Origin: Sulfuricurvum sp.
Lineage (GTDB): Bacteria > Campylobacterota > Campylobacteria > Campylobacterales > Sulfurimonadaceae
DNA length: 64,000 bases
Assembly (NCBI GenBank): GCA_020721585.1
Contig: DYMK01000009.1
Location: 1-64,000 of the forward strand
Direction of reading: 5' to 3'
The notes under the pieces are model-generated. The model was not told where the DNA came from. It was given only the letters and a program-made list of their open reading frames with translations, and made no database searches. The position numbers were made by a program, and so were the translations under genes. Shown piece after piece: positions 4,912-41,230 of this stretch; positions within the stretch are counted from its first letter, which is position 1; each line of letters opens with the position of its first letter.

Positions 4912-4919
4912 TTAAGGGG

Positions 4920-5429: not shown

Positions 5430-5469
5430 AAGACGACCCTTTGGAGTTAAGATGCGCCATTATACCGTG

Positions 5470-23459: not shown

Positions 23460-23714
23460 ATGGACAGCTTCGAGCTTCATTCTTCCATAGAAATAGCGCA
23501 TGAAATAGGTCGCAGAGCTAAAGCATTACGAAAAGCTACCAAAATGACCCAAAAAGAGTTTGCCGAATTTTCCGGAATACCCTTCGGAACCTATATGCGA
23601 TTCGAACAAAGTGGAGAGATCTCGTTTCAAAATTTTATCATTATCATGCAAAGACTCGGACGCATCGAAGAACTTGAATCGATGCTTTTGCCTAGAAAGG
23701 CGATTAAATGGTAA
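23460..23714 (+). CDS. hipB: HipB-like XRE antitoxin
   Basis: 84 residues from ATG 23460, which has AAAGG 8 bases upstream; a TTG six codons earlier lies inside the repeat. The XRE helix-turn-helix spans about 16-75 (ALRKATKMTQKEFAEFSG...TYMRFEQSG). It binds DNA and should neutralise the downstream HipA kinase. Its stop overlaps the hipA start (ATGGTAA), the usual coupling for this toxin-antitoxin pair. It is the first gene inside the left end of the island. Confidence 0.8.
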   Translation: MDSFELHSSIEIAHEIGRRAKALRKATKMTQKEFAEFSGIPFGTYMRFEQSGEISFQNFIIIMQRLGRIEELESMLLPRKAIKW

Positions 23715-24991
23715 ATGATACACTTATAGTCAAAGCATGGGGTGAAACCGTAGCCAAAATTATCGAAAACGATAAGGGAACCTATGATTTCATCATGAAT
23801 CCTACGAATACGCTTCCGTTCTCCCCGATTAAAATCACTAAGATGGGAGAAGTGTATAATTTTTCTCATCTTGAGCATCAATACGGCCTACCGGGACTTA
23901 TCAGTGACAGCTTACCGGGAAAATATGGGAACACTTTTTTGGAAGAGTTTTTTATCCGTCATTTTAAAAAGACACCAACAACTATTGAAAAATTACAAAT
24001 TCTCGGCAGCAATACGATGGGAGCATTGATTTACGAGCCTGAAAAATTGCATGAGCGCTCCAAAAATACTCAAGCTATTTTTCAGATGGCAGAACTCTAC
24101 GAAGAGACCAAAAAAGCACTCTTCGGTGAAAGTGAATTTGAGCTTGAAAAAATCATCGCCCTATCCAACTCGGCAGCTGGCGGTGCTCAACCCAAAGCGA
24201 TCGTCGGATTGAATCCAGATCAAAAAAGCATGTATGTCGGCAAAAAAAGTGACCCATTACCTAATGGATTCGTCCACGCGATCGTAAAATTTGATAATTT
24301 ACTCTATACCCGTGAACCGCAATCTAAAACGTTTTACGATGAACTTAATATCTCAAAAACACTAACGGAATATACATACTCCATCCTCGCACGCAAATGC
24401 GGCATCACAATCTCGGATAGCTACCTAATCGAAGACGGCAATGGCGGTATCCATTTTGCTGTAGAGAGATTCGACATTCTGAAACAAAATGACAATGTAG
24501 AACGATTGCATATGCATTCCCTCTCAGGGCTCATGCATCATAATCCAGCTGAAACGACATTTGATTATAGCAATCTTTTCCGAGTCGGATTAAAACTCAA
24601 CATTCCCCATTCGGATATGGAAAATATGTATCGAATTATGATCTTTAACATTGTTTTCGCCAATAGAGATGATCATTCCAAAAACTTTTCGTATCTCATG
24701 GATAAAAACGGTACATGGAGAGCAGCACCTGCTTACGACCTGACATTTGCCCCATCGGCGAAACATCAGATGCTATTCGATTATAAACCAGTGAGTGAAA
24801 TCAATCGTAAGCATTTGATTAAAATCGCCGATGAGTTCAATATTCGAAATGCGGGTGAAATGATCGATCATACTCTTACAGTCAAAAACCATTATTTACC
24901 TCTCATGAGTGTCGAATACGGTATTAACCCGGTATGGGCGGATCGAATATTCAAATTAACACAAAACACTGACCAATCGATCGCTATTTAA
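23708..24991 (+). CDS. hipA: HipA-family Ser/Thr kinase toxin
   Basis: 427 residues, the HipA length. Motifs: SAAGGAQPKA (Ser/Gly loop, about 154-163), catalytic NRDDHSKNFSYL (about 318-329) and the metal-binding AYDLTF. HipA of E. coli phosphorylates glutamyl-tRNA synthetase and induces dormancy; targets vary among homologues. The set of catalytic residues looks complete, so it is likely active. Placed at the edge of the island it may stabilise it or act as a defence module. Confidence 0.88.
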   Translation: MVNDTLIVKAWGETVAKIIENDKGTYDFIMNPTNTLPFSPIKITKMGEVYNFSHLEHQYGLPGLISDSLPGKYGNTFLEEFFIRHFKKTPTTIEKLQILGSNTMGALIYEPEKLHERSKNTQAIFQMAELYEETKKALFGESEFELEKIIALSNSAAGGAQPKAIVGLNPDQKSMYVGKKSDPLPNGFVHAIVKFDNLLYTREPQSKTFYDELNISKTLTEYTYSILARKCGITISDSYLIEDGNGGIHFAVERFDILKQNDNVERLHMHSLSGLMHHNPAETTFDYSNLFRVGLKLNIPHSDMENMYRIMIFNIVFANRDDHSKNFSYLMDKNGTWRAAPAYDLTFAPSAKHQMLFDYKPVSEINRKHLIKIADEFNIRNAGEMIDHTLTVKNHYLPLMSVEYGINPVWADRIFKLTQNTDQSIAI

Positions 24992-24996
24992 TAACA

Positions 24997-25305
24997 TCAT
25001 TCGTATCCATTTTCAGGATGACTCCAATATGAAAGTATTTTTACGATTTCAATCGTAATATCGATAGGAAATATGATTCCAAATTCATCATCGAAGTAGA
25101 TTTGAATCGATTCGGCTAATTCATTTTGTTCCGCTATAGCATCCGTAAAATCGCTTTTATTATATCTACACAAAAAAGGACGTGTAAATAGAAATACAAT
25201 CTCTTCATACACATATAATGCGAACGGACGATCCAAGTTATCATTCACATATTCCTGTAAGCGTATTGCTACCGTTTCTATTGATTCTGTAATCACATTA
25301 TCCAT
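24997..25305 (-). CDS. hypothetical acidic protein
   Basis: 102 residues, unrecognised, strongly acidic, with a central LDRPFALYVYEEIVFLFTRPF segment and a DDEFGIIFPIDITIEIVKIL stretch that read as beta/alpha units. It is convergent with hipA, 5 bases apart, and 26 bases downstream of the second recombinase gene, so it may be the second gene of that operon. A ribosome site AAAGGAAATGAATT precedes the start. Function unknown. Confidence 0.55.
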   Translation of the reverse strand: MDNVITESIETVAIRLQEYVNDNLDRPFALYVYEEIVFLFTRPFLCRYNKSDFTDAIAEQNELAESIQIYFDDEFGIIFPIDITIEIVKILSYWSHPENGYE

Positions 25306-25331
25306 AATTCATTTCCTTTTATTAATTAATA

Positions 25332-26249
25332 TCATCCTAGGTAATGTTCTGTTATCGAGCTTCTGAAGTGCTTCATTTCCCATGAAACACCTTGAAGTGC
25401 TTCTTCATAAGAATACCCTGCCCTCTGATACTCTCGGACTCTGCGTTGAGCCGCCGTCCAACGAAATCCGTGTGATCCATGACACTCTATCTGCAATGTC
25501 GCACAAGTATTTCGAATATCTTCCGCATAACTTTTGTAGTTGACTTTAAATCGTCCTTCTTTTTTGATGATTTCCTCGATTTGTCGATACGTGTCGACAT
25601 CGACAAATACATCACCAACTTTCCCTCCCTTTTCTTTGGTTTGAATAACTCCAATCTCTTTTTTAGAAATAGGATCAATGCGATATCCATGCATCTGTTC
25701 AGAACGAATCAACGTGCATCCCTCTGCCCTTGCGAGTCCATGTAATTGTACATGTGCTGAACACCTATGTTTATGGTTTGCAAGCATTCCAATCAATTGT
25801 TCCGGTTCTTTATAAATTCGGCTGTGGTATCCGTCATACACACGATTTAGATTCCTGGCTAAATTGAGTTGAATTTGACGTACTCCAAAATCATAATTAC
25901 GCGGTTCGCCGTATTTTTGTTGTGTATAACGTTTGAGAGCAATTTCAAGTTTTCCAAGAGCTGCTGAAATTTTTTCAAGATACGCTTTTGATGGGTAATA
26001 TTCAATTTTATAAAGCATATAGGCTTCAATATGTTCGGCAGTAATTTGTTCAAAATCTTTAATGCTATAACATTCTTTCATCCAGTGCCCAGCGTTGTTC
26101 CAAACGGATCGATACGTTTCCATCGTCATAAAACTTGCTACACAATTATGATTAGGATGACATGGGTCAATGCGTTCTTCTTTTTTGGTACCTTCTACGA
26201 AAATTGCTTTTACCAATTCGGCACTCTGCCAGTCGACTGATCCTCTCAT
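25332..26249 (-). CDS. second, divergent tyrosine recombinase
   Basis: 305 residues. The catalytic core can be aligned by eye: Arg174 in GLARAEGCTLIRSEQM, Lys at 207/210 in KEKGGKVGD, His260-x-x-Arg263 in SHGFRWTAAQRR, Trp290 at the His/Trp position, and Tyr303 three residues from the C-terminus (TEHYLG). The N-terminal half is helical and could be a core-binding domain. The unusually early end after the nucleophile and the distance from the P4-type integrase suggest a separate role, such as excision, resolution or relic of an earlier insertion. No accompanying att repeat was seen. Confidence 0.6.
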   Translation of the reverse strand: MRGSVDWQSAELVKAIFVEGTKKEERIDPCHPNHNCVASFMTMETYRSVWNNAGHWMKECYSIKDFEQITAEHIEAYMLYKIEYYPSKAYLEKISAALGKLEIALKRYTQQKYGEPRNYDFGVRQIQLNLARNLNRVYDGYHSRIYKEPEQLIGMLANHKHRCSAHVQLHGLARAEGCTLIRSEQMHGYRIDPISKKEIGVIQTKEKGGKVGDVFVDVDTYRQIEEIIKKEGRFKVNYKSYAEDIRNTCATLQIECHGSHGFRWTAAQRRVREYQRAGYSYEEALQGVSWEMKHFRSSITEHYLG

Positions 26250-26742: not shown

Positions 26743-27732
26743 TTATTCCGTCTGTTCTAAGACAATTAATTTATACAAATCTTGTTTGAGCTTATACAAA
26801 AGCTCTCGTTTTTTGCTCATAAATTCATACTCAAAAAAGACAATTTTTTTGATTTCAGAGGCTGATAGCCCCATTGTATATTTAGCAATATCTTCAATTT
26901 TTGATTTTCTATACTTTTGAGCTTTGTTGATAATAGATTTAAGGACTTCTGTATGAGAAGCATAAACCTCTTGTATTAAAAACGTTTCTAAATGAGTTTT
27001 GTATTCTGGTCTTGAAATTAATTGTCCATAGTTTTTGATATATATTTTATTCATATAGACATCGAAATCAAACTCTATTTCATCAAATATTTTTTGTGGG
27101 GGATATATTGAAGATTTATAAAAGTCTACACTACTTTTAGCTCTTTGATTACAAAATAAACATGCTGGCACTAAATTAGACAGCGTAACAGCTAAAAATG
27201 GATATCTCGATTTTGGATAAAAGTGATCTAAATCAGGAGTTATAGATTTTGAATTTTTCTCAGATTCAATTACACCAATATAGCTTCTCGAACAATATGG
27301 GCAAATAAATAGTTCACTAGATTGAATCAATTTTTTTCCATAAATATTCCTCATGTTTTTATACATTCTTGAATACTTTTTGATGAGAAACTTTTTTATA
27401 CATTTTACTTGTTCATCAACATTCAGGGAACTAAAATCACAAACAACATCTTCAGACGTTGTTATAAAAATATCTCTTGCATTAGCACCATATTGAGCTA
27501 TTAAATTTGTAAAAAAAGTTTCAATAATTAATGAATTTTTTACTTGGTCGGAAAACAAAACATCTTCTTTGATTCTTCCATTTTCTTCGAAAGACAGATT
27601 AAGTAAAAACTTTTTTGTAGCAGGCATAATATAGGCAAATATGGGGTCTTTTAGGATCTCATTTGTATCATAATCTTTTTTATGAAAATACTTAAGTAAA
27701 TCTTTTTGATCCTGTTTATCTACCTTTATCAT
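26743..27732 (-). CDS. HNH endonuclease, PtuB-like partner of the ATPase (Septu-like)
   Basis: 329 residues. The C-terminal half has a zinc-bound HNH fold: CPYC (144-147), LDHFYPKSRYP (168-178) with the catalytic His, and LVPACLFCNQRAKS (187-200). The N-terminal half is unrecognised and helical. It starts 4 bases inside the stop of the ATPase gene, a fixed pairing seen in Septu (PtuA ATPase/PtuB HNH) anti-phage systems, where the pair cuts nucleic acid on infection. It is longer than typical PtuB, so it may belong to a Septu variant. Confidence 0.75.
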   Translation of the reverse strand: MIKVDKQDQKDLLKYFHKKDYDTNEILKDPIFAYIMPATKKFLLNLSFEENGRIKEDVLFSDQVKNSLIIETFFTNLIAQYGANARDIFITTSEDVVCDFSSLNVDEQVKCIKKFLIKKYSRMYKNMRNIYGKKLIQSSELFICPYCSRSYIGVIESEKNSKSITPDLDHFYPKSRYPFLAVTLSNLVPACLFCNQRAKSSVDFYKSSIYPPQKIFDEIEFDFDVYMNKIYIKNYGQLISRPEYKTHLETFLIQEVYASHTEVLKSIINKAQKYRKSKIEDIAKYTMGLSASEIKKIVFFEYEFMSKKRELLYKLKQDLYKLIVLEQTE

Positions 27733-29753
27733 GATTGGTCACTATCTTGCAAATAAAAATACATTTTAAATAGATGATGTCTCACAACATCCTCACCAAT
27801 ATTATCAATGATTTTTTTAGCTTCTGAGGCGAATTCATGATTCCGATAAGCTACAAAATATTTATTTTTTATTATTTTGTCATATTTGTCTATTTCTTCC
27901 GACGTTTCACCTCTTAAGAATCTCTCCGTCATTCCAATCAGCTCTTTATTTTCTTCTTCTTTATTTTCTGTATTGATATACATCCAATCCAAAAAATCTC
28001 TCAACATAAAAAAGTTCAACTCCGTCTTAGCTTTTTTATATACGAAGAGAAAATATAAAAACTCTGAGAGTTCTTGAATTACGGATTCACTAAATGCTCC
28101 AATCGTATTCGTCACATAGAAGTCATCTTTAAAAATATCAAAAATATTACCGCCGAAAGTTTTTGTTCCTTTATCAGTGTCTCCCAAATAAATAACATTT
28201 TGATTATAGATATCACTAACGACAAAAGGAGAATGTGTAGCAATAATAAATTGAAATTTGATGCCAACATGGCTTGTTTGAAAAAAATCGTTGATATATT
28301 TAATAAAATTTCTTTGCCATTCAGGGTGTAGATGTAGTTCAACTTCATCAATTAAAATCATAAATGTTCTATTTTTGAGATTATTATATGTTGCATCTTC
28401 AGATTGGATATCAAGAAGCTCATTGACCCTACCCACAATGTTGGCAAAGTAAGATAATAAAGTTTTTTCGCCAGAACTCAATCTGAAAAAGTTAATTTCA
28501 TTTTCATTTTTCAATAAATAAATATTAAAATCAATTATATTTTTTGCCGTCAAGCTTTTTAAGTTTTTTAGCATCTTCGGAAGCTCTTTATTTTCTACAA
28601 TTTGCCGGAGTGCCTCATTATCCGTTAAAGATCTTAATTGAAGAAATTTATCTTTTTCAGTAATCAGTCGGGATAAAAATGGATATTGTTTGGAATCAAA
28701 AAGATCTTTTATATCGATATTTTTTTGAAGATCAAGTAAAAAAGTATCGATTATTTTGATAATATCAGTCTCTGTTGTATTTCTTTGAAGTGCATAACTC
28801 AAAAATAATATGAATCTTTTTGGACTTTTAATATTAAGATATTTGCGTAGAATCAAATTAAAAAAATCATCATCAAATAGTGTTGGTATAGAAAAAAAGT
28901 CAAAAGATTCTTGAAGAGTTTCATAGAGCTCTTCTGTAAAATAATTTTCCAATAATTTTTTTTCTTCCCCCTTAAAACTATTGAAATCAGGAAGATCTAC
29001 TGAAAATTCAAAAAATTCATTATTTAGTTCCAATTCAATATTTTTAAAAAAATAACCAAGCTGATTCATGATTTGCTTACGATTTTCATTAAAAAATAAT
29101 GAGATAAGATTGACGATCGTCATATGCTCATATTTAACTTCATTATTACCAATTTGGTTGATACCAATATACTTAAAACGCTTATGATAATGTTTTACTT
29201 GAGCAGATGAAGAAGAAAGTTTTTCTTTGATTAACGTATAAATTCTATCAAATGGTGACAAGCTATGAAAAATAATACTTGTTTGAAAAGGCAATACTGA
29301 AAATCCATTATCTGACAAAGGAAATTTTTCATTTTTATCTGTAATGTATTTATCTTGCTGAAATTTATTTTTTACCAAATTTTTTGAAATACCATCAACA
29401 ATAAATATCCAATTATGTGCATCATTAATATAACTTTCAATCAAAAATTCATCTGCATTTTGATCATAAAATAAAAGATGAAGTTTCCCTTCTAACATAC
29501 TTCCATCAAGCCTCCACAACAAAGGAGCGATGAGTAACTCAAAAAAAGTAGTTTTCCCTATCCCATTTCTTCCAACAATACACGTAATATTTGAGATTGA
29601 ATCATTGAATGGATTGTGATAATTTTGGTTCGTAATGGCAGTAATATTTTTAGTTGCTCGATTTAATTCTATTTGAAATTCATTATCAAAATAATACCCA
29701 CCAGCAGGGATATTTTTATAACCGTCTTCAAGAAACATATACAATAATTTCAA
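27729..29753 (-). CDS. AAA/ABC-type ATPase, PtuA-like (Septu-like)
   Basis: 674 residues. Walker A GRNGIGKT (61-68), ABC-like signature FFRLSSGEKTLLSYF, Walker B MILIDEVELHLHPEW and switch IIATHSPFVVSD are intact. A long insert lies between Walker A and the signature. There is no TOPRIM domain, so it is not an OLD nuclease. The coupled HNH gene downstream supports a Septu-like defence pair: ATPase sensor plus nuclease effector. No reverse transcriptase or ncRNA suggests a retron here. The gene is notably AT-rich. It is 79 bases from the upstream gene, the widest gap in this stretch. Confidence 0.75.
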   Translation of the reverse strand: MKLLYMFLEDGYKNIPAGGYYFDNEFQIELNRATKNITAITNQNYHNPFNDSISNITCIVGRNGIGKTTFFELLIAPLLWRLDGSMLEGKLHLLFYDQNADEFLIESYINDAHNWIFIVDGISKNLVKNKFQQDKYITDKNEKFPLSDNGFSVLPFQTSIIFHSLSPFDRIYTLIKEKLSSSSAQVKHYHKRFKYIGINQIGNNEVKYEHMTIVNLISLFFNENRKQIMNQLGYFFKNIELELNNEFFEFSVDLPDFNSFKGEEKKLLENYFTEELYETLQESFDFFSIPTLFDDDFFNLILRKYLNIKSPKRFILFLSYALQRNTTETDIIKIIDTFLLDLQKNIDIKDLFDSKQYPFLSRLITEKDKFLQLRSLTDNEALRQIVENKELPKMLKNLKSLTAKNIIDFNIYLLKNENEINFFRLSSGEKTLLSYFANIVGRVNELLDIQSEDATYNNLKNRTFMILIDEVELHLHPEWQRNFIKYINDFFQTSHVGIKFQFIIATHSPFVVSDIYNQNVIYLGDTDKGTKTFGGNIFDIFKDDFYVTNTIGAFSESVIQELSEFLYFLFVYKKAKTELNFFMLRDFLDWMYINTENKEEENKELIGMTERFLRGETSEEIDKYDKIIKNKYFVAYRNHEFASEAKKIIDNIGEDVVRHHLFKMYFYLQDSDQS

Positions 29754-29832: not shown

Positions 29833-30750
29833 TCAATCAACTAAAATCTTTTCACGCATTATTTGTTTCCATCGTCTTGAATGGATAATTCGTGCTTCTT
29901 GCAATTGCTCTGCTAATATTTCTGCCTTTGTATATTGTGACAGCATTTCCCAGTTATTACTAAAAATATAGGTTGCATTGCCTGATTTTGAATTTTCGAG
30001 CACATACAGATTGCGTTCACGGAATCCAAAAACCACATATTCATTAAATGCACCATTGCCAATGGCTACAAAATCAGGACTAAAATTATTCATGAACTCA
30101 AATCTATTGAGTGCGTCCTCTTTATTTTCGATATTTGTCTTGGTAAGTAATTCGGTTAATGGTTCTCTCATGCTTTGCCAAGGCATTTGTCCCTCTGGCA
30201 AAACCCGCCAATTTAGTCTGATTATTGGTGTCTGTTGTCTACTTAAAAAATCCACATCAACAATTTCACATTCATTACATATTTCCAAAAACACATTGAC
30301 TATATGTTGTATTAGAAGCTTATTTCCGCCATTAATTTCAATAGTATCTGAAGAAAGAACCTTGCTACCATCGATTGCTTCCACGACTGATAATTCTTGC
30401 GACGGTGCATCGATAAAACGGGTTCTGTATCGTTCATAATCTCTCAAACCTGTAACAGTATGAGGATTACTATGCCAATCATAAATTGTGCGTGTTTGCA
30501 ATACACTAAAAGTCTCTTTTGGCTCATCCAGCAATTTTTCTTCACGTCCATTGGCATTGTATTCTGTTCCAGGGCCTATGACAGCTGGCAAAATCCTAGA
30601 ACCAACAGCCATGCTCTCATCAAACCCCAAAGAAATCAGCCTATCCTGAAAACGCTCTATATCTCGAAGAATAATCTTTATCGACTCACCTTCTTGAAAA
30701 TGAGTCAAATAGCTATCTATTTTTCGAATTCTTGATTTTGTAATAATCAT
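29833..30750 (-). CDS. unrecognised protein, second of an abutting pair
   Basis: 305 residues without a motif I recognise. It is soluble, with mixed alpha/beta character and a C-terminal half that includes FVAIGNGAFNEYVVFGFRE and LYVLENSKSGNATYIF, beta-rich segments that could form a small fold. Its start codon follows the stop of the upstream 284-residue gene without a single intervening base, so the pair is translationally linked. It lies inside the defence run, between the DUF6236-like gene and the Septu-like pair. A defence role is inference from position only. Confidence 0.65.
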   Translation of the reverse strand: MIITKSRIRKIDSYLTHFQEGESIKIILRDIERFQDRLISLGFDESMAVGSRILPAVIGPGTEYNANGREEKLLDEPKETFSVLQTRTIYDWHSNPHTVTGLRDYERYRTRFIDAPSQELSVVEAIDGSKVLSSDTIEINGGNKLLIQHIVNVFLEICNECEIVDVDFLSRQQTPIIRLNWRVLPEGQMPWQSMREPLTELLTKTNIENKEDALNRFEFMNNFSPDFVAIGNGAFNEYVVFGFRERNLYVLENSKSGNATYIFSNNWEMLSQYTKAEILAEQLQEARIIHSRRWKQIMREKILVD

Positions 30751-31605
30751 TTATACCTCCAAGACATTGATCAACTTGCCTTCGCGTGTTTCAACCAATG
30801 TTCCCATTTTGACGATAGGTTCTATTTCTATTTTGATAGATTTTTTGTCTCTGAAGTAGTCACTGATTACAGTAAGTTGTTCGTCATTGGCTCGGACTTT
30901 AACTTTTCCCATAAAGTTAACATCCATGATAAACGATTTGCTTCCTCTAGACAATTTATCTGGAACGCCACTGATGATAAGATTTTCAAGTTTGATAGTA
31001 TCAGATTCATGTGCATTAATAAGATCTTTAATAGAGGCATCAATTTCAAGTCTCTCCGAGACTTCCTCATCTGCATAACTGAATGAAATCGATGAAGGCT
31101 TTAGGTATGATTCTCCCTCTGAAGATCTTACAATAGAAGCAATTGATTTGACTGCATTGAAAGAAGCAAATTCACTATTAAGTATTTGAATATTTTGTTC
31201 AACTTTTTTCTTTTTTCGTTCTAAATTAACATCGTAATATTCAGCCTCTGCGAGTGATACCGCAAGCTCAAATGTTTGATCTAGTAGCTGTTTAAGCTCT
31301 GCACGCTTTTCAGTAAATAAAATGTACGATCGCATACCTTTAATTAAGTCATATAAAATAGCTGCACCAATACCTTCTTTTAATGCCTGAACCGTTGCCG
31401 GATCGAGTAATCCAAGAATGATTTCAAAACTACCTTCTCTATTTGCCTGAATATAAATTTCTTGTTGCTTGGTTCCGTATCGTTGATATTCTAGATTGTA
31501 TGAAAGTTTTTGAAGCGCATCGGAGAGTTTTGCCATATCGGAGAGAGACATCATATGGGCATCAGAAGCACCGCCATTGAGTTTAATAATCACAACATGC
31601 CCCAA
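30751..31605 (-). CDS. unrecognised protein, first of an abutting pair
   Basis: 284 residues. The N-terminal part has a short beta-helix unit (VVIIKLNGG, then LSDMAKLSDALQKLSYNLEY) and a motif ANREGSFEIILGLLDPAT, followed by a weakly hydrophobic helix (GIGAAILYDLIKGMRSYI, about 96-113). A charged helix with KKKKVEQNIQ follows and the C-terminus is beta-rich. The GSFE motif plus LYDL helix recalls a class of uncharacterised bacterial proteins, but I cannot name it safely. It abuts the 305-residue gene and follows the DUF6236-like gene by 24 bases. Confidence 0.65.
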   Translation of the reverse strand: MGHVVIIKLNGGASDAHMMSLSDMAKLSDALQKLSYNLEYQRYGTKQQEIYIQANREGSFEIILGLLDPATVQALKEGIGAAILYDLIKGMRSYILFTEKRAELKQLLDQTFELAVSLAEAEYYDVNLERKKKKVEQNIQILNSEFASFNAVKSIASIVRSSEGESYLKPSSISFSYADEEVSERLEIDASIKDLINAHESDTIKLENLIISGVPDKLSRGSKSFIMDVNFMGKVKVRANDEQLTVISDYFRDKKSIKIEIEPIVKMGTLVETREGKLINVLEV

Positions 31606-31629
31606 AATTCTTCTTCATAGATGCGCTTT

Positions 31630-32685
31630 TCATTTTCGCATACCATAAATCAAATTACCTGCTCTATCAATAATACCATTTTCGGTCAATTCTGCATTAA
31701 TATTCAAAAGATATGATAATGGTTGCTTGCGGATTTCTAATATTTTTTCGTGACGATTAGTCAAATGAGTGATAACACCATACATGAGTCCAGTAGCATA
31801 TGCAATTAATTTAAATTTCTCTGGAATAAAATTCATCAAGCTCTCAATATATGCAGGAGTACCTATATTTATAGTACCTCTAATCGTAATGATTCCATTC
31901 AACTCATATTGTTTTTTTAATTCCCCAGTTTGCCGTGCTAATGATCGACTATAATGATGAATCGCATCTTGAAGCGCAGATTCATTATCTATAGTTTGAA
32001 TATGGTCAGATAGCTTGTTAATTTCATCAAAGTACGCATACCTTTCAGCCGAATATTTTTCTTTAAAAAGAATCAGCTCATCATATGAAATATTATGCAT
32101 ATTATCAGGTAGAACTACATTTATCATCAAACTTCCAACTCTACTGATAAGTTCCTCCTGAAAAAGACTCGGTGTTCGGTGCGAACTTGTACTAAAATCA
32201 TTTGGATGTGTCATCGTGTCAGTTACATAGGGAACAGAAAATTCTTCTGCAATATTTGCAGCCAAAAGCTTCATGTAAATATCACCAATCTCTTTATCAA
32301 CAGTAATCCACCCATTTATTTTTGGATGTCTAATATTTTTTTGAATCAACTTTACAACAGAATCATTCATTTTATCACTATGAATATATGATACTTCACC
32401 AAGTCTTGCTTTTGATGATTTCAGTTGATCAAAATATTCTATATTTTTATCAAAATATTGTGACAAATCTTCAGCTGTTTTATAAAGTATACTACCTTGT
32501 CTTGGATCAATATTTTCAATAAAACGTGTTTTATCATTGAAGTTTCTAACAAGTCTTTCATCATCCGGAGTAACTGAAGCAGGCACAATCCGAGAGATTT
32601 TATCCCAAAATAAATATGCTTGCTTGAGCCATTCTTCACTTTGAATATGAATATACGGATAATAAAGTGCATGACCAAAACTCAT
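31630..32685 (-). CDS. DUF6236-like protein
   Basis: 351 residues. The opening FGHALYYPYIHIQSEEWLK followed by AYLFWDKISRIVP is the pattern of the DUF6236 family, proteins of unknown function found in accessory and defence-type gene clusters. The body is helix-rich with several charged helices (NKLSDHIQTIDNESALQDAI) and ends with short hydrophobic helices (FKLIAYATGLMYGVI). It sits 64 bases downstream of the ABC-3C ATPase and 24 bases upstream of the next gene, so it probably belongs to a three-gene module with the abutting pair. Confidence 0.6.
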   Translation of the reverse strand: MSFGHALYYPYIHIQSEEWLKQAYLFWDKISRIVPASVTPDDERLVRNFNDKTRFIENIDPRQGSILYKTAEDLSQYFDKNIEYFDQLKSSKARLGEVSYIHSDKMNDSVVKLIQKNIRHPKINGWITVDKEIGDIYMKLLAANIAEEFSVPYVTDTMTHPNDFSTSSHRTPSLFQEELISRVGSLMINVVLPDNMHNISYDELILFKEKYSAERYAYFDEINKLSDHIQTIDNESALQDAIHHYSRSLARQTGELKKQYELNGIITIRGTINIGTPAYIESLMNFIPEKFKLIAYATGLMYGVITHLTNRHEKILEIRKQPLSYLLNINAELTENGIIDRAGNLIYGMRK

Positions 32686-32749: not shown

Positions 32750-34588
32750 TCATTTTTCAATCTTTTTTACGTGTGGAATAAAACCATAACGTCCAAATTC
32801 ATCATTTTTTGTAAATTCGATATGATTAATTTCAGTATCACCATTTGGTGGAGGGGTGTTTTCGATTACGATCATCTGTAGATCCTTAAAATGTTGAGCC
32901 AAATAATGATAAAAATTTTCTGCCAAATCTACTGAAATGAGATCATCTGTATTCATCTTTGGTTTTTTATAAGTAACCAAAGGCGAATCAAAAACTGCCA
33001 AACCAATTTGATACGTTTTTGTTTTTAACAACTGAATAAGACTGACAATAAATGCTGCATAGGTGATAGCCCTATAACCTTTTCCAAATTCTTGTCTATT
33101 TTTGTCATTGATCACAAAATCATGCAATCCTTCCGAGTAACTTAATTTTGTTAAATTTGGAAAGTTAATTTCTTTTAATAGTGCTTCATAAATGCTCAGC
33201 AAAGGGAGCACAGTTGATACGTCAAGATCTATAAACCCTGTTGATTCTTGATCTTTCACTTTATCTAAAAATTTTTCTATTGTTGTCTTGTCAGACTCGT
33301 ATTGTGTAATTCTCTTCATTATCAGTTGCGCTTTTGATAAATCTGCCTTTTTATCTCCATAAAGGTTCAAAAAGTTTGAAATTCTTGCCATTTCATTATT
33401 AATTTGATGTTCAATAACTTCAGTAATAGAATCTGCTATATTTTGATCTTCTTCTAATTTGGATACAAGTAGTCTTTTTTCATCGTTAAACATTCTTTTA
33501 GTATCGATTAACTCATTAAGTAATGCAGTTATTTTCTCAATTTCTGCATGGCTTGACTGCACAACCATATCCATATTGATTTCTATTCTACTCTCAAGCT
33601 TACTATGGCACATAGGACATGATGAACTATCTAAAGAACTCAATGTTAAACTTGTTTCAATTGTCGAACGTAATCGAGCGATATCACTCATATATTGTTC
33701 TGAAAGGATGTCAGCTCTTATGAGTAAATCATCCAAGTAAACAATTCTTGATTGTTTTTCTCTAATGTTTTGCTCTATAGTTTTCTTTTCTTGATAATGT
33801 TCATCAAAAATCTTTTTAAATTGCGCATATTCCTGACTCAATGTTGTCATACTATTATTTAATTTGTCAAGTTGACTATTTATCTGAGGTTCTGTTATAG
33901 CACCACTGATTCCTGATAGTTCTTCATATGAAGAGGCTATAAACTCATCCAAGAGTTCCATTTTAACCTTACGGTTGGCAACTGTATTTTTATCAGCTTT
34001 TACAATAATGTTACCATCATCTTGCCCTGTTAACAAATACTTAAAGACATTTTCCAAATATGTCTTATCTACATATTGTTCTTTTTGTATAGGAGACATT
34101 TCAGACTGAAGTTCGATTTCACCCAAAAGAAAAAAATTATGCAATACTCTAAAAGTAATATTTTTTGTTTCTCCTTTTTGATTTTTTCTTGCCTTTTTAC
34201 CTTTCATTCCTCCGAGTGAAAGTAAAAAATCAGAAAGTTCTATTTCGCTGAATTTTTCATGTTTAGTACTATCATCAATTTCCGAGAGTTCAAAATCATA
34301 TTTTTTAAAATCACCGCCTTTTAAACTTCGTTCTAATGTATAATTTTTGCCTAAATAGGTCTGAATTTGGAGAAAAGATTTTGTGTACTTTCTTGCTTCA
34401 GGCACATTTTTTGGAGGTCTAGATCTTCCTAATAAAAATTCAATACATTGAAAAATAAATGTTTTACCTGTATCAGAAGGTCCTGATATTACATTTAAAC
34501 CTTTTTTTAAAGTCACTATAGCGGGTTCAAGGTCTATACCAGTTAATCGTAATTCTTTTAAAAAAAATCCTTGATTGGAATTACTCAT
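32750..34588 (-). CDS. ABC-3C system SMC-like ATPase
   Basis: 612 residues. Walker A GPSDTGKT (36-43) is followed by a coiled-coil arm, a zinc-hook-like CPMC motif near the middle, a second coil and a C-terminal Walker B-like LAVFDSPLVTYKKPK. This is the layout of the Rad50/SMC-like ATPases of ABC three-component systems (DUF3732 group). It starts inside the stop of the middle component (ATGAGTAA overlap). The ATPase is thought to sense foreign DNA or replication intermediates and license the effector; that is family-level prediction. Confidence 0.8.
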   Translation of the reverse strand: MSNSNQGFFLKELRLTGIDLEPAIVTLKKGLNVISGPSDTGKTFIFQCIEFLLGRSRPPKNVPEARKYTKSFLQIQTYLGKNYTLERSLKGGDFKKYDFELSEIDDSTKHEKFSEIELSDFLLSLGGMKGKKARKNQKGETKNITFRVLHNFFLLGEIELQSEMSPIQKEQYVDKTYLENVFKYLLTGQDDGNIIVKADKNTVANRKVKMELLDEFIASSYEELSGISGAITEPQINSQLDKLNNSMTTLSQEYAQFKKIFDEHYQEKKTIEQNIREKQSRIVYLDDLLIRADILSEQYMSDIARLRSTIETSLTLSSLDSSSCPMCHSKLESRIEINMDMVVQSSHAEIEKITALLNELIDTKRMFNDEKRLLVSKLEEDQNIADSITEVIEHQINNEMARISNFLNLYGDKKADLSKAQLIMKRITQYESDKTTIEKFLDKVKDQESTGFIDLDVSTVLPLLSIYEALLKEINFPNLTKLSYSEGLHDFVINDKNRQEFGKGYRAITYAAFIVSLIQLLKTKTYQIGLAVFDSPLVTYKKPKMNTDDLISVDLAENFYHYLAQHFKDLQMIVIENTPPPNGDTEINHIEFTKNDEFGRYGFIPHVKKIEK

Positions 34589-35069
34589 AAATATTTGCTC
34601 CTATACTACAAAAAGTAAACTCACCACCCCATTTATCGAGATTATTTTTGATGAATTTTTCCAACTCTTCAGTTGCTTTATATTGAAATTCACACACAAC
34701 CCATTGAGCACGCTCCATGAGTTCGAGCGTATAATGTTCATTTAGCATATCAAGAAAGGGACTTGCATTTTCTGTTGCTCTGTACTCTATGCCTTGTAGA
34801 GTAAACACTTTTTCAATCAATCCGTTTGAAATGAATAGTTCAAGACCATCTTCTAAAATTTTCCTACGCACAAAAAGTTCACCTGATCGATTGGGCACTT
34901 GAGGATGAAGACTCTTTGGTCCATCCTTTACATCGCCACTATGAACTGTCAAATAATCGTAATATAAAATTTGTTGTAAATCCAAAGTATTAGGAAAAGC
35001 AGTACGTAAAATCACCAGTACTCTCAAACCTGTTTCAATTGCATTATTAAAAACATAAATTCTATTCAT
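34581..35069 (-). CDS. ABC-3C middle component (MC2-like)
   Basis: 162 residues from ATG 35069; in-frame ATG 35075 is an alternative. Hallmarks of the MC2 group are visible: an N-terminal helix pair (IETGLRVLVILRTAFP), YLTVHSGDV, LHPQVPNRSGELFVRR and a compact C-terminus. It links the ATPase and effector in ABC-3C systems. Both ends overlap neighbours by 8 bases (ATGAATAG with the effector, ATGAGTAA with the ATPase), indicating strict co-translation. Confidence 0.8.
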   Translation of the reverse strand: MNRIYVFNNAIETGLRVLVILRTAFPNTLDLQQILYYDYLTVHSGDVKDGPKSLHPQVPNRSGELFVRRKILEDGLELFISNGLIEKVFTLQGIEYRATENASPFLDMLNEHYTLELMERAQWVVCEFQYKATEELEKFIKNNLDKWGGEFTFCSIGANIYE

Positions 35070-36126
35070 CGTCATCAATCCATGTTAATTTTCCATCGTT
35101 AGCAAGCTGATGACATATACCTTTTTTATCTTGTGTAATACACCTTTCTTTTAAAGGATTTGAATCAATATTTATATGCGTAGCTTGCAACTCTACTTTT
35201 TTTACTTTTTCAAATCCACTGTAAAAGCTTTCATCTTCAGCCATATCGACAACTCCATGAAATATTTCCTGCTGAAAGTCGTCAAAAACTTTCTCACCTA
35301 AATTATCTCTACTAAAATTTCTCAGCTGTTCAGCAATATGAAAATTCTCGCGGGCTCTTGCAAAATGCTTGCTATATATCTTGTGACTTATGATCTCTTC
35401 AAGCGTTTTAAAATCATTTTCCGGTTTGTCAGATTTATATGCAAGAATTAATTGTTGAATATATCTATTCTCATTGGATTGAATAGTATTAGGAATTACT
35501 TGAGGTTTTTCACGAGGAGGCAACCCTCCTCCGAATCTAGTTATATATTGAGAATGGGATTTATATTCTTCAATAATTTCTTTTGGAAGTTTCTTATCAA
35601 ATATTGAAAAATCAAAGGCTTCAAAGTATTTGAGCAACTCTCCTTCTAATGGTATTGATTTTGTCTTAGTAATTTTATCTTTACAATGTGAATCCCAATG
35701 ATCTTTGATTTCTTGTTTCAATTTATCAGGCTTATTTAACAGATTTGATAGGCTAGTTCCAACACTTTTCGGAGCAACAAAAAAATATTTATTAGGGATA
35801 GGATATTCTTCCATAAATGTATAATAGATAATTTTGCCAAATTCCTGCCATACATCACTAGGTGCTAATGAATTAGCATAATGTTTACATTGATAACAAT
35901 TCCATTTATAGTTTGGTTTACGTTCATCAATGTAGGCAACTACATCCCGCCCCATATCTCCAGCTCCGCCAAGTCTTTCTACCCTTACATATTCTTTGCG
36001 TTTAATATCTAGCCACTCTTCAGTAAATTCTTCCCATTCTTGCGCAGAATAAAGTGAAATACGCTGGATAGGCTTAATATATGGTCCTATCGCAACTTCT
36101 TCTGAGGATAAAAAATAACTGTTCAT
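35062..36126 (-). CDS. ABC-3C effector with Mrr-like nuclease domain
   Basis: 354 residues. The N-terminal domain has the PD-(D/E)xK restriction-like signature of Mrr-type nucleases: LGGAGDMGRDVVAY (Asp61) and WNCYQCKHY (Gln79-x-Lys81), preceded by a helix EWEEFTEEWLD. The C-terminal half is the variable system-specific domain expected to contact the middle component. It follows hsdS by 11 bases, and so is placed as if it were a fourth gene of the R-M operon. It should cut DNA when released by the ATPase; this is inferred from the family. Confidence 0.8.
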   Translation of the reverse strand: MNSYFLSSEEVAIGPYIKPIQRISLYSAQEWEEFTEEWLDIKRKEYVRVERLGGAGDMGRDVVAYIDERKPNYKWNCYQCKHYANSLAPSDVWQEFGKIIYYTFMEEYPIPNKYFFVAPKSVGTSLSNLLNKPDKLKQEIKDHWDSHCKDKITKTKSIPLEGELLKYFEAFDFSIFDKKLPKEIIEEYKSHSQYITRFGGGLPPREKPQVIPNTIQSNENRYIQQLILAYKSDKPENDFKTLEEIISHKIYSKHFARARENFHIAEQLRNFSRDNLGEKVFDDFQQEIFHGVVDMAEDESFYSGFEKVKKVELQATHINIDSNPLKERCITQDKKGICHQLANDGKLTWIDDDE

Positions 36127-36137
36127 TGTTGCTCCAT

Positions 36138-37418
36138 TTAATCAAACGCCTCTTTAAGAATAGTCTGCATCAATCGATCAGCTTTAGCACGACTTTTAGC
36201 AACTTCCGCTTCTATCGCATCGCAGGTAGTCATAAGCTGTTCAATTTTAGTAACGATACGGTGTTGTTCGACAAATGGTGGAATCGGAATTAACGTATTT
36301 TTTAGCTTAGTTCCGTTGTAATTTGCCTGCCCACATTGCTTTACAATTTGAGGCTCTATCTGTGTTTCTCTAAAATATGATGATCCCATACAAAAATTAT
36401 AGAATTTTGCATTTACACAAGAAGATAACCGAACTCTAATTAAGTATGATGCGAATGTGTATTTGTTATTTTCACCTTCAAATAAAGCTGTTTTTCCAAC
36501 AAGTTCATAACTATTAGTTCTATTAAAAACTAGATCATTCTGCTGTAAAAAAAGTTTTGGTAAATCACTATTATCAGATCTAAGAAACTTGAAGTTTCTA
36601 CTTAATATTTTTCCATTTTGGATATGACCCATGCTGATTACGGGAACATCACCAACTTCATTTGCTTTACATGAAGTGCCAAATTCAACAAGGTTAGCGA
36701 TATCTCCAAGTCTGCCCCACATCCACCCAACAGGCAACTCATAAGGAATTTCATCAGCAGAAATTGGAAAAAGAGGTTTGTCTAGCTTGAGTTCACCCTC
36801 TTTAATTAATCGCTCTTTTTCAGCTTTGATCCGTTTCAATAGTACACTGGCAGGTTCATCAGTGGGGTCTTGCAGAACGAGACGGCCACTTACCGCATCA
36901 CTGAGAATAGAACTGCGGAGTTTAGAAATTAGTGCAGATTGAGTTTGTAGTTCAGCCGAAAATTCTTGCTGTATCGGATGAATTATTCCAAGCTTTTTTC
37001 TGACAGTTTCTTGATGTTCTTTATCAAAAAATGGAATTTCAAAATTCCCAAAATTTGCTCTATTGATAGATATTTTGGATGTTCCAGTTGCTGTTTGTTT
37101 GACAATACTTTCTCGAAGATCATTAAAAATAGTATGATAAAACTTCAAATCAATCTGATCTTTGTATTTTTCTTTTGGAGTGAGTATGAAGCATAGATCA
37201 CTAGAAATAAATTTTCCATTAAAATAATGAGTACGTCCTAGTGAGCCAGAAGCCGCCATCGCAAAAATTAAAGCTTCGCAATCATGAGTATACGTTTCAT
37301 GTGTTTTCCATTCTGCTGAAGCTGTGATAAAAGTATATTCTCCAGCTGTATTTTTACTGCTTTGGAGCTGTCCTTTTTCAAAATCAAAAAGTGCTTTAAT
37401 GGGCACTAAATTGCTCAT
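36138..37418 (-). CDS. hsdS: type I restriction enzyme specificity subunit
   Basis: 426 residues with two target-recognition domains separated by conserved helical spacers: SALISKLRSSILSDAVSGRLV in the middle and VEQHRIVTKIEQLMTTCDAIEAE near the end, each a typical HsdS helix. TRD2 begins with the LPVGWMWGRLGDIA pattern. It dictates the bipartite methylation and cleavage site. It overlaps hsdM by 4 bases. TRD sequences are more AT-rich than hsdM, as usual for recombining specificity modules. Confidence 0.93.
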   Translation of the reverse strand: MSNLVPIKALFDFEKGQLQSSKNTAGEYTFITASAEWKTHETYTHDCEALIFAMAASGSLGRTHYFNGKFISSDLCFILTPKEKYKDQIDLKFYHTIFNDLRESIVKQTATGTSKISINRANFGNFEIPFFDKEHQETVRKKLGIIHPIQQEFSAELQTQSALISKLRSSILSDAVSGRLVLQDPTDEPASVLLKRIKAEKERLIKEGELKLDKPLFPISADEIPYELPVGWMWGRLGDIANLVEFGTSCKANEVGDVPVISMGHIQNGKILSRNFKFLRSDNSDLPKLFLQQNDLVFNRTNSYELVGKTALFEGENNKYTFASYLIRVRLSSCVNAKFYNFCMGSSYFRETQIEPQIVKQCGQANYNGTKLKNTLIPIPPFVEQHRIVTKIEQLMTTCDAIEAEVAKSRAKADRLMQTILKEAFD

Positions 37419-38842
37419 TTCAACTCACTTTTTAGTGTAACTAATAATTCATCACATTTCAAAAATGATGCATGGAGTTTTTCGACAATTTCATCAGTTG
37501 TATAAATATGCTCTTCTTCCCCTCGGTGAGAATTCTTGACATCAAGATTATAATTATTTGCCTTGATGGTATCGATACTGACTTTCCACGCCAGTTCATT
37601 TTCTATACGGTTATCCCACCACTCACTCAATCCAGCGAAATCATCGATACGAACTGGCTTGGTCTTGGTGTATTTTTTGTACCCTTCCGGAAGCGGCTGT
37701 TCATAATACCAAATCTCTTTGGTCGGTTCACCCTTGGTAAAAAAGAGGAGATTGGTATTGATGTCGGTATAGGGTGCGAAGATACCATTAGGGAGTCGGA
37801 CGATTGTGTGGAGATTACACTCTTCTAAGAGCTTTTCTTTTATCCGCGCCGTTACACCATCACCGAAGAGCGTTCCATCGGGCAAGACGATCCCTGCACG
37901 ACCACGAGGTTTTAGCATCTGGATAAAGAGGAGTAAAAAGAGGTCCGCCGTTTCACGGGTACGATAGGCAGCGGGGAAATTGTTCTCGATACCGGGTTCT
38001 TCTGTCCCTCCGAAGGGAGGATTCGCAACGATACAATCTACTCGCTCAGCTGGGGTGATGTCTTTTAGCGGTCGAATGAGAGAGTTGTCATGACGAATAT
38101 CGGGACGCTCGATGTCGTGCAAGATTAGGTTTGTCATAGCGAGCATATATGGGAGCTGTTTTTTCTCGATACCGTGGATGGTTTTTTCCAACGTTACACG
38201 ATCATCAGCCGTTTTGACACCGTGACGCATAATATGGTTAATCGAACTGATCAAAAATCCACCTGTTCCACATGCAGGGTCAAATACTTTTTCTCCCAGT
38301 TTTGGATCGACGGTGCGAACAATGAACTCGGTTACAGCGCGAGGGGTATAGTATTCACCCGCATTACCGGCACTTTGGAGATCACGCAAGATACGCTCAT
38401 ACATGTCGTTAAAGAGATGACGTTCGGAGAGACTGTCAAAATGGATCGCACTTAGCTTGTTGACCACTTGACGTAAAAGTGTCCCTGATTTCATGTAGTT
38501 GTAGGCGTCTGCAAACATCCCTTTGATCAGCGGGGCATACGGGTTATCCATCGTTACATCGAGCTCTTTTAGTGTCGGGAAAAGATCGTTGTTGATGAAG
38601 TTGATCAGATCATCGCCCGTCATCCCTTCATCATTTGCCGCCCAATTGCGCCAACGTAGCGGTTCTGGGATTGGGGAACGATAATTAGGCTTTTCGAGTT
38701 CGAATTCTTCTTCTTTGGTATCAAAGACTTTTAGAAAGAGCATCCATACGAGCTGACTGATACGCTGTGCGTCACCATCAACTCCTGTATCGGTACGCAT
38801 GATGTTTTGGATCGATTTTACGATGTTTGAAATGTCGGCCAT
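37415..38842 (-). CDS. hsdM: type I DNA adenine methyltransferase
   Basis: 475 residues. SAM-binding motif I DPACGTGGF and catalytic motif IV NPPF are intact, after the N-terminal helical HsdM domain. It methylates adenine in host DNA and forms the core of the HsdR2M2S complex. Tight spacing to hsdR (15 bases) and overlap with hsdS show a single operon. Base composition is clearly less AT-rich than the genes downstream, which suggests a different origin from the ABC-3C and Septu genes. Confidence 0.95.
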   Translation of the reverse strand: MADISNIVKSIQNIMRTDTGVDGDAQRISQLVWMLFLKVFDTKEEEFELEKPNYRSPIPEPLRWRNWAANDEGMTGDDLINFINNDLFPTLKELDVTMDNPYAPLIKGMFADAYNYMKSGTLLRQVVNKLSAIHFDSLSERHLFNDMYERILRDLQSAGNAGEYYTPRAVTEFIVRTVDPKLGEKVFDPACGTGGFLISSINHIMRHGVKTADDRVTLEKTIHGIEKKQLPYMLAMTNLILHDIERPDIRHDNSLIRPLKDITPAERVDCIVANPPFGGTEEPGIENNFPAAYRTRETADLFLLLFIQMLKPRGRAGIVLPDGTLFGDGVTARIKEKLLEECNLHTIVRLPNGIFAPYTDINTNLLFFTKGEPTKEIWYYEQPLPEGYKKYTKTKPVRIDDFAGLSEWWDNRIENELAWKVSIDTIKANNYNLDVKNSHRGEEEHIYTTDEIVEKLHASFLKCDELLVTLKSELK

Positions 38843-38857
38843 AATATAGTTAATTCC

Positions 38858-41230
38858 TTAAGATGCGTATAGGTGATGTTCGATGGTTTTGATTAGGCTT
38901 TCATAGCCTTCTCTGCCGTTTCCGAAGAGACGGGCAAGTTCGATAGAAGTTCCGATCTCATTAAATGGGCGGACTTTGAGTATCCCGATGTCTTCGATAC
39001 TCTCGATCCCTTCTTCAGTGTATTTATCCAGCAGTGCGTTGATGACGGTTCTAGCTTTATCGCCATAGGTGTCGAAGTAGTTACCGCCTTTGAGCTTTCC
39101 GGCACGCTGAGCACGTGTGAGAGCAGGACGCTCGTAAGCAATATGGCAGATAAGATCGAATGGATCAAGCCCCTCTTTGCCAACTTCTCGTTCCAGCTCA
39201 TCGAAGAAGATACCCTGAGACTGAAGTTCAGAGATAATTGCCTCTTTTTGCTCGGCTTTATTCCACTCTTGTAAAAACTCATCGAGGCTTGCAAAGCGGT
39301 TGTGAATATTTTTACGGCTGTAGTCGATGAGTGATTCTGTAATGAGTTTGCCATTAGCTCCGACGAATTGTACCCGCGTTCCCAGAACAGCCACCTGAAC
39401 GTTGCCTACGGTATGACGAGTGGGTTTTGTCGTCTCATCACCATTGATGGTAATATCAGGAACATCGTGGATCAGTATTGTTTCATCCATCGGTGTAATT
39501 TCAGAGTCATCTTCATCCTCTGGAGGAACAACGGGGTCATCCCCTTTTGGTTCATAAATCTGTACCGGATCACCGTCAAAATCGGGATCTGCAAAATGGT
39601 GCGTGACATTGCGAAAATCCATGATCGTAAAGAAAAACTTGCCATAAATCTCGTTGATTCGTGTACCACGCCCAATGATCTGTTTAAATTCAGTCATAGA
39701 ACCGATATTGGAGTCGAGAACAATCAATCCTGTCGTCTGTGCATCCACCCCCGTCGTCATGAGTTTAGACGTTGTAGCGATGACGGGATACGTGGATTCT
39801 GGGTCGATGAAGTTATCCAGCTCTTTTTTCCCTTCCTCATTGTCACCCGTGATACGCATCACGTATTTTCGGCTTTTTTTAGCCATTTCAGGAGCAGCAT
39901 TCACCAGCGCTTGACGCATCCGTTCCGCGTGGTCGATATCGACACAAAAGACGATCGTTTTCATGTAAGGATCGGTTTCGTTCAAAAACTCAGTTACCTT
40001 GCGGGCGACAAGATCGGTACGCTGTGTCAGGATAACATTCCGATCAAAGTCTTTGGTATTGTATTCACGATCTTCGATTACATTGCCATAATCATCTTTT
40101 TGCCCTTCATATGGTCTCCATCCCTCAACGTCACGATCAAGTGAAAAACGGATAACTTTGTATGGAGCGAGGAATCCATCATCGATCCCCTGTTTAAGCG
40201 AATAGGTGTACACCGGTTCACCAAAATAGGAGATGTTGCTCACGTATTTAGTCTCTTTAGGAGTAGCGGTCAAACCTACCTGTACGGCAGTAGTGAAATA
40301 ATCTAAAATCTCACGCCATTGACTATCTTCAGCAGCACTTCCGCGATGTGCTTCATCAATAACGATAAGATCGAAAAAATCAGGGCTAAACTCCTTAAAA
40401 ATCTTTTTCTCTTCGCTCACACCGGTAATCGCTTGATAGAGTGAGAGATAGATTTCAAAAGACTTATCAACCGTACGGTTGGTAATCTTAGTCATTTTGT
40501 CACCGAAGTGCTTGAAATCACCGATTTTAGTCTGGTCCACGAGGATATTACGATCGGCAAGAAAAAGGATACGTTTGGCTCGTCCGGCTTTATAAAGGCG
40601 ATAGATGATTTGAAAAGCAGTGTAAGTTTTCCCTGTCCCAGTCGCCATGACCAGTAACACTCGTTTTTGACCACAGGCTACCGCTTCTACGGTACGGTTA
40701 ACGGCATTTTTTTGATAATAACGAGGTTCACGGCGAGGATCATCGATGTAATACGGAGCAAGAGCAATTTTTTCCGATTCTTCTTCAATGATCCCTTTGT
40801 GGATTTTATACCGACGCCAAAGTTCATCGGGTGACGGGAAAGCATCCATAGGAATTTCTCGTTCTAATGCGCCATTAGATTGCGTTGGGTCATACTCTAA
40901 AAAGCCATCACCATTGCTGCTAAATACAAATGGAATATCAAGAATTTCTGCATATCCAAGCCCCTGTTGCATACCAGCGCCAACACTATGCTTATTGTCT
41001 TTAGCTTCAATGATAGCAATGGGGATATTGGGTTTGAAATAAAGGACGTAATCGGCTCGCTTTTGTTCACCGCGTCTAATGATTTTGCCCTGCACATGTA
41101 TCCGTCCAGCAGTAAAGCCAACTTCTTCACGAATTTGAGAATGCAAGTTCCAACCGGCTGATATTAACGCAGGGGTAATATGCTTTGTACAGATATCGCG
41201 TTCAGATAAATCTTTTTTAGAAGCCATCAC
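38858..41230 (-). CDS. hsdR: type I restriction enzyme R subunit (EcoAI-type)
   Basis: 790 residues. The N-terminal nuclease domain has ADYVLYFKPNIPIAIIEAKDNK, in parts, containing the D...ExK residues. The SF2 translocase shows MATGTGKT, VIDEAHRGSA, GLTATP and QIIGRGTR, and the C-terminus is the EcoEI-type R domain. It cleaves unmethylated DNA after translocation. It opens the long minus-strand defence run; the 115 bases upstream presumably hold the promoter. Confidence 0.95.
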   Translation of the reverse strand: MMASKKDLSERDICTKHITPALISAGWNLHSQIREEVGFTAGRIHVQGKIIRRGEQKRADYVLYFKPNIPIAIIEAKDNKHSVGAGMQQGLGYAEILDIPFVFSSNGDGFLEYDPTQSNGALEREIPMDAFPSPDELWRRYKIHKGIIEEESEKIALAPYYIDDPRREPRYYQKNAVNRTVEAVACGQKRVLLVMATGTGKTYTAFQIIYRLYKAGRAKRILFLADRNILVDQTKIGDFKHFGDKMTKITNRTVDKSFEIYLSLYQAITGVSEEKKIFKEFSPDFFDLIVIDEAHRGSAAEDSQWREILDYFTTAVQVGLTATPKETKYVSNISYFGEPVYTYSLKQGIDDGFLAPYKVIRFSLDRDVEGWRPYEGQKDDYGNVIEDREYNTKDFDRNVILTQRTDLVARKVTEFLNETDPYMKTIVFCVDIDHAERMRQALVNAAPEMAKKSRKYVMRITGDNEEGKKELDNFIDPESTYPVIATTSKLMTTGVDAQTTGLIVLDSNIGSMTEFKQIIGRGTRINEIYGKFFFTIMDFRNVTHHFADPDFDGDPVQIYEPKGDDPVVPPEDEDDSEITPMDETILIHDVPDITINGDETTKPTRHTVGNVQVAVLGTRVQFVGANGKLITESLIDYSRKNIHNRFASLDEFLQEWNKAEQKEAIISELQSQGIFFDELEREVGKEGLDPFDLICHIAYERPALTRAQRAGKLKGGNYFDTYGDKARTVINALLDKYTEEGIESIEDIGILKVRPFNEIGTSIELARLFGNGREGYESLIKTIEHHLYAS

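Follow-up and report, generated by a model that had tools for sequence, protein, structure and literature searches.

Background

The described protein that comes first in structural comparison with one of the genes studied here is ZorC of the Zorya system, which together with ZorD binds invading DNA and helps to process it (PMC12409349). We were not able to find literature on the EH signature, DUF6236 or GAPS6 in the collection searched.

Here we analyse a stretch of 64,000 nucleotides from Sulfuricurvum sp. (contig DYMK01000009.1, positions 1 to 64,000; the window). An earlier note had singled out three consecutive genes in it, a DUF6236-like gene and two unrecognised ones, as the best candidate for an undescribed defence system, lying between ABC-3C and a Septu-like pair. 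We call the middle gene A (280-284 aa) and the last gene B (305 aa). The candidate survives for A and B, and more strongly for B, whereas the DUF6236-like gene had to be removed from it.

Layout of the region

Three minus-strand open reading frames were verified at 31630-32685 (351 aa), 30751-31605 (284 aa) and 29833-30750 (305 aa). Every gene of the series that runs from hsdR at 41230 down to the PtuB-like gene at 26743 is on the minus strand, with gaps of -17 to 79 bp, and this shared strand and spacing are compatible with one long gene array. The region would then be a type I restriction-modification array with nested cassettes, namely Lamassu with the DUF6236-like gene, then the A-B pair, then the PtuAB-like pair:

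36138..41230, minus strand: type I restriction-modification genes hsdS, hsdM and hsdR at the array head (HsdS and HsdR from PADLOC/NCBIfam models, hsdM from sequence and place)
32750..36126, minus strand: Lamassu LmuA (Mrr-like), LmuC and LmuB (PADLOC and Pfam ABC-3C models)
31630..32685, minus strand: DUF6236-like protein, 351 aa (Pfam PF19749, E = 3e-5), put with the upstream Lamassu cassette
30751..31593, minus strand: gene A, 280 aa from a likely GTG (the frame opens at TTG 31605, 284 aa), judged from the starts of its relatives; lineage-specific partner of B
29833..30750, minus strand: gene B, 305 aa, of a widespread cargo-gene family with about 30 relatives (AlphaFold2 pLDDT 85)
26743..29753, minus strand: PtuAB-like ATPase/HNH pair (Septu-like), best PADLOC models PDC-M62A/B

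LmuA, LmuC and LmuB match their PADLOC models with E = 8e-115, 4e-55 and 8e-143, respectively, and the ABC-3C system is thus Lamassu; the Septu-like pair at 26743-29753 is fitted better by the PADLOC candidate PDC-M62A/B than by PtuA/PtuB. The GC content differs by cassette: 0.44-0.45 for the restriction and modification genes, 0.30-0.34 for Lamassu and the DUF6236-like gene, 0.36 for each of A and B, and 0.27 for the PtuAB-like pair. At the end of the defence array (23708-26249) are genes for a HipA-like kinase and for a recombinase/integrase-like protein.

Distribution and conserved residues of gene B

Gene B has a good ribosome-binding site (Shine-Dalgarno ggaggtataaATG). Weak ZorC scores aside, no known domain scored above threshold in its sequence with the Pfam, NCBIfam, PHROGs and PADLOC models. 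Using tblastn and profile scans we found about 30 relatives on plasmids, in prophages, on chromosomes and in defence islands of at least seven phyla (Campylobacterota, Spirochaetota, Bacillota, Deinococcota, Pseudomonadota, Bacteroidota and Actinomycetota), and also in viral contigs. Few plasmid records contain the gene (18 of 72,556). Partial, unannotated matches on the plasmids NZ_CP043896.1, NC_011061.1 and NZ_CP044363.1 suggest decayed copies.

B is mostly a single cargo gene with changing neighbours. In prophage contigs, those of Mu-like and P2-like phages included, it stands isolated among phage genes or beside an integrase, and it also occurs on small plasmids. Its immediate partner is A in four loci, and most loci have none. 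Elsewhere a KTSC-domain gene overlaps B by 4 bp (Deinococcus), a small ORF lies 14 bp upstream (phage record MT838181) or, in Lactococcus (L009), 17 bp separate B from an upstream helicase/restriction gene of 1569 aa. In L050 and L051 (approximately 4374-6951) we see a three-gene cassette by an integrase, consisting of a 359-aa protein (a shorter ORF in L050), a 177-aa membrane protein with two hydrophobic segments that ends 7 bp upstream of B, and B itself; such a membrane partner recalls Zorya. Defence and mobility genes, annotated as such or recognisable, are among the neighbours at several loci: type I restriction-modification (L018, L019, L060), the reverse transcriptase UG36 (L019), BglII-family restriction-modification (L015), Lit, AAA and helicase genes (L013) and an Abi protein (L044).

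The earlier note had seen no catalytic motif in the three genes. This does not hold for B, in which the core Y...E/D...N-A-x-Y...R..H...W is near-constant in 31 aligned relatives: Y238, A259, Y261, R287, H290 and W294 are kept in 31/31, N258 in 30/31, and position 252 is E in 28 and D in 3. We consider these residues, as judged from the alignment, a putative active-site set. The domains and two of the residues are located as follows:

30241..30750, minus strand: B N-terminal domain, aa 1-170, beta-rich, at best weakly like a CYTH/triphosphate-tunnel fold
29836..30210, minus strand: B C-terminal domain, aa 181-305, candidate divergent EH-signature-like domain (8r68 (ZorC) match; PADLOC ZorC1 in relatives)
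29995..29997, minus strand: E252 of B
29881..29883, minus strand: H290 of B

The cargo position of B is compatible with functions other than defence. B could be an accessory of the phage or plasmid that carries it and have no part in defence, serving e.g. for anti-defence, for the carrier's superinfection control or for DNA maintenance. Its occurrence beside integrases in prophages, within Mu-like and P2-like phages and on small plasmids would suit such a role. We regard this as somewhat unlikely, given that B is also found on chromosomes within restriction-modification and defence arrays and that its putative active-site set is strongly conserved.

Predicted structure of gene B

Structure prediction, which the earlier note had recommended for both proteins, worked for B only (AlphaFold2 mean pLDDT 85, as against 44 for A). 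The model of B has two domains and a low-confidence loop at 171-178. Residue 252 is at the end of a strand and N258-A-x-Y261 within the next one; H290 comes after a strand, and the last helix starts with W294. In VIA-align, 8r68 (ZorC) comes first with Z 6.4 (110 residues aligned at 3.3 A, residues 189-305 of the model with 313-469 of the chain), followed by the next row at Z 4.1; the former value is below the trust level of Z 8, and unrelated folds score alike. The PADLOC ZorC1 profile weakly matches two related members of the B family, L043 (E 6e-4) and L012 (E 2e-3), at profile positions 362-448 and within this same C-terminal part of the proteins. Two genuine ZorC proteins, the only ones we found for this comparison, carry VIEG.H...THS.....W, in which E375, H418 and W426 (numbered in L069) follow the same order E...H...W as in B. 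Residue 252 and H290 of B match E375 and H418 of ZorC in their order along the chain.

On the other hand, Pfam EH_Signature (PF15611) did not match B (scanned with 15 members at E 0.5 and with 10 at E 10), and a profile comparison of 31 B sequences with the two ZorC proteins did not confirm the likeness. Because of these two results we liken B to the ZorC EH domain and do not file it as an EH_Signature/ZorC member. Going by the model, the C-terminal domain is similar to ZorC's EH domain and may function in the same manner. Neither in the window nor at the B loci read did B have a recognised ZorA, ZorB or ZorD gene next to it, whereas the true Zorya loci fetched for comparison carry the ZorA/ZorB motor genes.

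Several CYTH-fold chains match the N-terminal domain at Z of about 3.8-4.1, which is in the chance range, and an ExExK motif is absent from the N-terminus; the resemblance to CYTH/class IV cyclases was not adopted. Foldseek gave nothing at E 0.001 or better for the model of B, and the rows it ranked highest were alpha-hemolysin pore toxins (E 0.01, TM about 0.1), which we set aside as beta-sheet noise. A BFVD search with the same model returned nothing.

The A-B pair

We searched 41 genomes of the genus with A and about 397 genomes of the class with B, and found the pair in three other Campylobacterota genomes (G022, G328 and G369); two of these relatives are an Aliarcobacter MAG and Arcobacter vandammei. 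In the window A and B abut with 0 bp between them, as the earlier note had stated, and 1, 1 and 5 bp separate them at the other loci. In G369 (L019/L026) hsdS directly precedes the pair, and a methyltransferase-like gene and an RT UG36 gene come after it; at L019:5023-7709, directly 3' of the pair, the methyltransferase-like gene overlaps this defence-group RT. In G328 (L018/L025) the pair is preceded by hsdR, hsdMS and an OLD/PtuA-type ATPase gene. In G022 (L017) its neighbours are a DUF4160/DUF2442 pair on one side and a MutS-HNH gene on the other, and the stretch read contains neither restriction nor Lamassu genes. The adjoining protein of G022 (L017:9425-12373) is MutS-like with a C-terminal HNH nuclease motif. 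One of the three loci is an ordinary chromosomal setting.

The pair therefore occurs without Lamassu or PtuAB-like pairs (L017, L019/L026; the ATPase upstream in L018/L025 is a different one) and escapes the objection, raised in the earlier note, that the genes might be found only with ABC-3C or Septu. We conclude that A-B is an independent two-gene cassette and a candidate system, and that the trio is not one module.

Gene A probably encodes 280 aa (30751-31593) and not 284, since its relatives begin at the residue equivalent to GTG 31593, four residues later than the TTG. It shares 51-53% identity with the gene that immediately precedes B in G022, G328 and G369. Across 397 genomes of the phylum there are three clear matches to A and five more at E 0.002-0.007; a search of genome contigs with narrow patterns gave Aliarcobacter and Arcobacter only, and none was found on plasmids or viral contigs. 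The relatives are too few for a usable structure model, and that of A (pLDDT 44) was unfit for structure search. The first 85-115 residues weakly match NCBIfam LAPAL_fam (E 1e-4) and Pfam DUF7946 (E 0.005), under both curated cut-offs (21.8 vs 60 bits and 17.2 vs 27 bits) and in the window's A alone of the four A proteins; we take this similarity as a possible lead. GapS6a was dropped as a relative of A (E 0.26, one member).

The four A-paired B proteins form one clade (support 0.999), and the unpaired campylobacterotal B of G293 belongs to a distant clade, which is the pattern that a mobile gene would give if it had acquired A a single time within the sample. In G293 an HNH endonuclease gene follows the unpaired B after 25 bp (L020:6180-6953), and further on there are a helicase and a 292-aa gene, Hachiman-like by sequence impression only. 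The confinement of A to one B clade suggests a lineage-specific sensor, regulator or adaptor. The remark in the earlier note that the genes may sense or be structural fits A at best, whereas B looks like an effector.

Tight spacing with the partner gene first, and toxin-antitoxin genes in the neighbourhood of several B loci, could also speak for a toxin-antitoxin or abortive-infection pair, in which B acts on a target in the host and A keeps it neutralised until infection occurs. However, most B loci have neither A nor any close same-strand partner, which means that B is tolerated alone, and no toxin fold was found. We consider such a pair unlikely.

The DUF6236-like gene

The DUF6236-like protein of the window scores 23.7 bits against PF19749, below the curated cut-off of 26.2 for membership; its relative in G403 is above it with 27.5 bits. 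The GC content of its gene is 0.316 (0.20 at third positions), close to LmuB (0.303 and 0.21), as against 0.36 and 0.28 for A/B. In G403 the DUF6236 gene abuts LmuB at 0 bp, and A and B are absent. This operon (L064:6457-12011) has LmuC, LmuB and the DUF6236 gene together with two genes of LmuA type, one trypsin-like and one MBL-type.

On account of the GC content and of this abutment we assign the gene to Lamassu. Genes for the LmuB ATPase, LmuC and LmuA are present beside it in the window and in G403, and they are not neighbours of A/B elsewhere. Tentatively, on these two loci, it is an accessory of the window's Lamassu cassette, and the G403 operon suggests that DUF6236 may be an accessory Lamassu component; the DUF6236 gene suits the Lamassu cassette or is found alone. 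No DUF6236 gene was found in viral contigs. The three genes had been placed outside both neighbour systems, and this holds for A and B but probably not for the DUF6236-like gene.

The check proposed in the earlier note, whether the trio recurs as a unit without its neighbours, gave the pair only: searches with A, B and DUF6236 did not find the full trio elsewhere. That DUF6236 is an obligate third component of one system is very improbable and the trio was rejected as a unit, for although the three genes share a strand and lie close together in the window (24-36 bp from DUF6236 to A), no DUF6236 gene is near A-B in G022, G328 or G369, neither A nor B is beside the DUF6236 relatives in the three other Campylobacterota loci read (G367, G003 and G403), and the base compositions are unlike.

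Proposed function

Gene structure, the recurrence of the pair, the distribution and invariant residues of B and its fold resemblance are observed directly; gene neighbourhood, cargo position and the same resemblance lead us to infer an anti-phage function of A-B, with DNA as the presumed target of B and A as a presumed sensor or regulator. We prefer, still tentatively, the reading that A-B is an independent cassette in which B, carrying a divergent EH-like domain, serves as a stand-alone defence effector aimed at DNA and is controlled or triggered by A. The core would be B, a mostly stand-alone cargo protein of about 300 aa in prophages and plasmids whose C-terminal domain is like the ZorC EH domain. 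By analogy, B would be a DNA-engaging effector that binds invading DNA and helps to process it as ZorC does with ZorD; A, in one B clade only, would control or trigger it. A wider claim, which we regard as doubtful, is that B founds a family of anti-phage effectors that has gone unrecognised, each encoded by a single gene and spread through prophages and plasmids. Its members would use a ZorC/EH-like DNA-handling domain but no Zorya motor, and a dedicated partner, A, would have been gained in Campylobacterota.

If the preferred reading is true, the EH-type domain, so far discussed within the multi-protein Zorya machine, also works as a compact, mobile, stand-alone defence, and the 300-residue B could be used to work out the role of the conserved E and H. 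A family of at least seven phyla, which the models searched (Pfam, NCBIfam, PHROGs, PADLOC) match only by weak ZorC scores, would in that case have a name and a hypothesis.

Comparison with known systems

A is comparable to LAPAL_fam (NF053583) and DUF7946 (PF25678) in the weak local match of its N-terminus and in length, the LAPAL model being 292 long; it differs in lying far below both curated cut-offs and in that one of four A proteins matches.

The Lamassu cassette of the window and that of G403 both have DUF6236 after LmuB, and both LmuB proteins match PADLOC PDLC03863. On the other hand, LmuA is Mrr-like in the window and trypsin-like plus MBL in G403, and the majority of the DUF6236 genes seen are located elsewhere.

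B differs from Zorya type I ZorC (PDB 8r68) in being a 305-aa protein with an unrelated beta-rich N-terminal domain, in having no ZorA, ZorB or ZorD nearby and no Pfam EH_Signature match, and in carrying NAxY where ZorC has G..H after the E. It is like ZorC in that 8r68 is the top structural match of its C-terminal domain, in the weak ZorC1 matches of two relatives, and in the same succession of a strand with E, a strand, a strand with H and a helix led by W.
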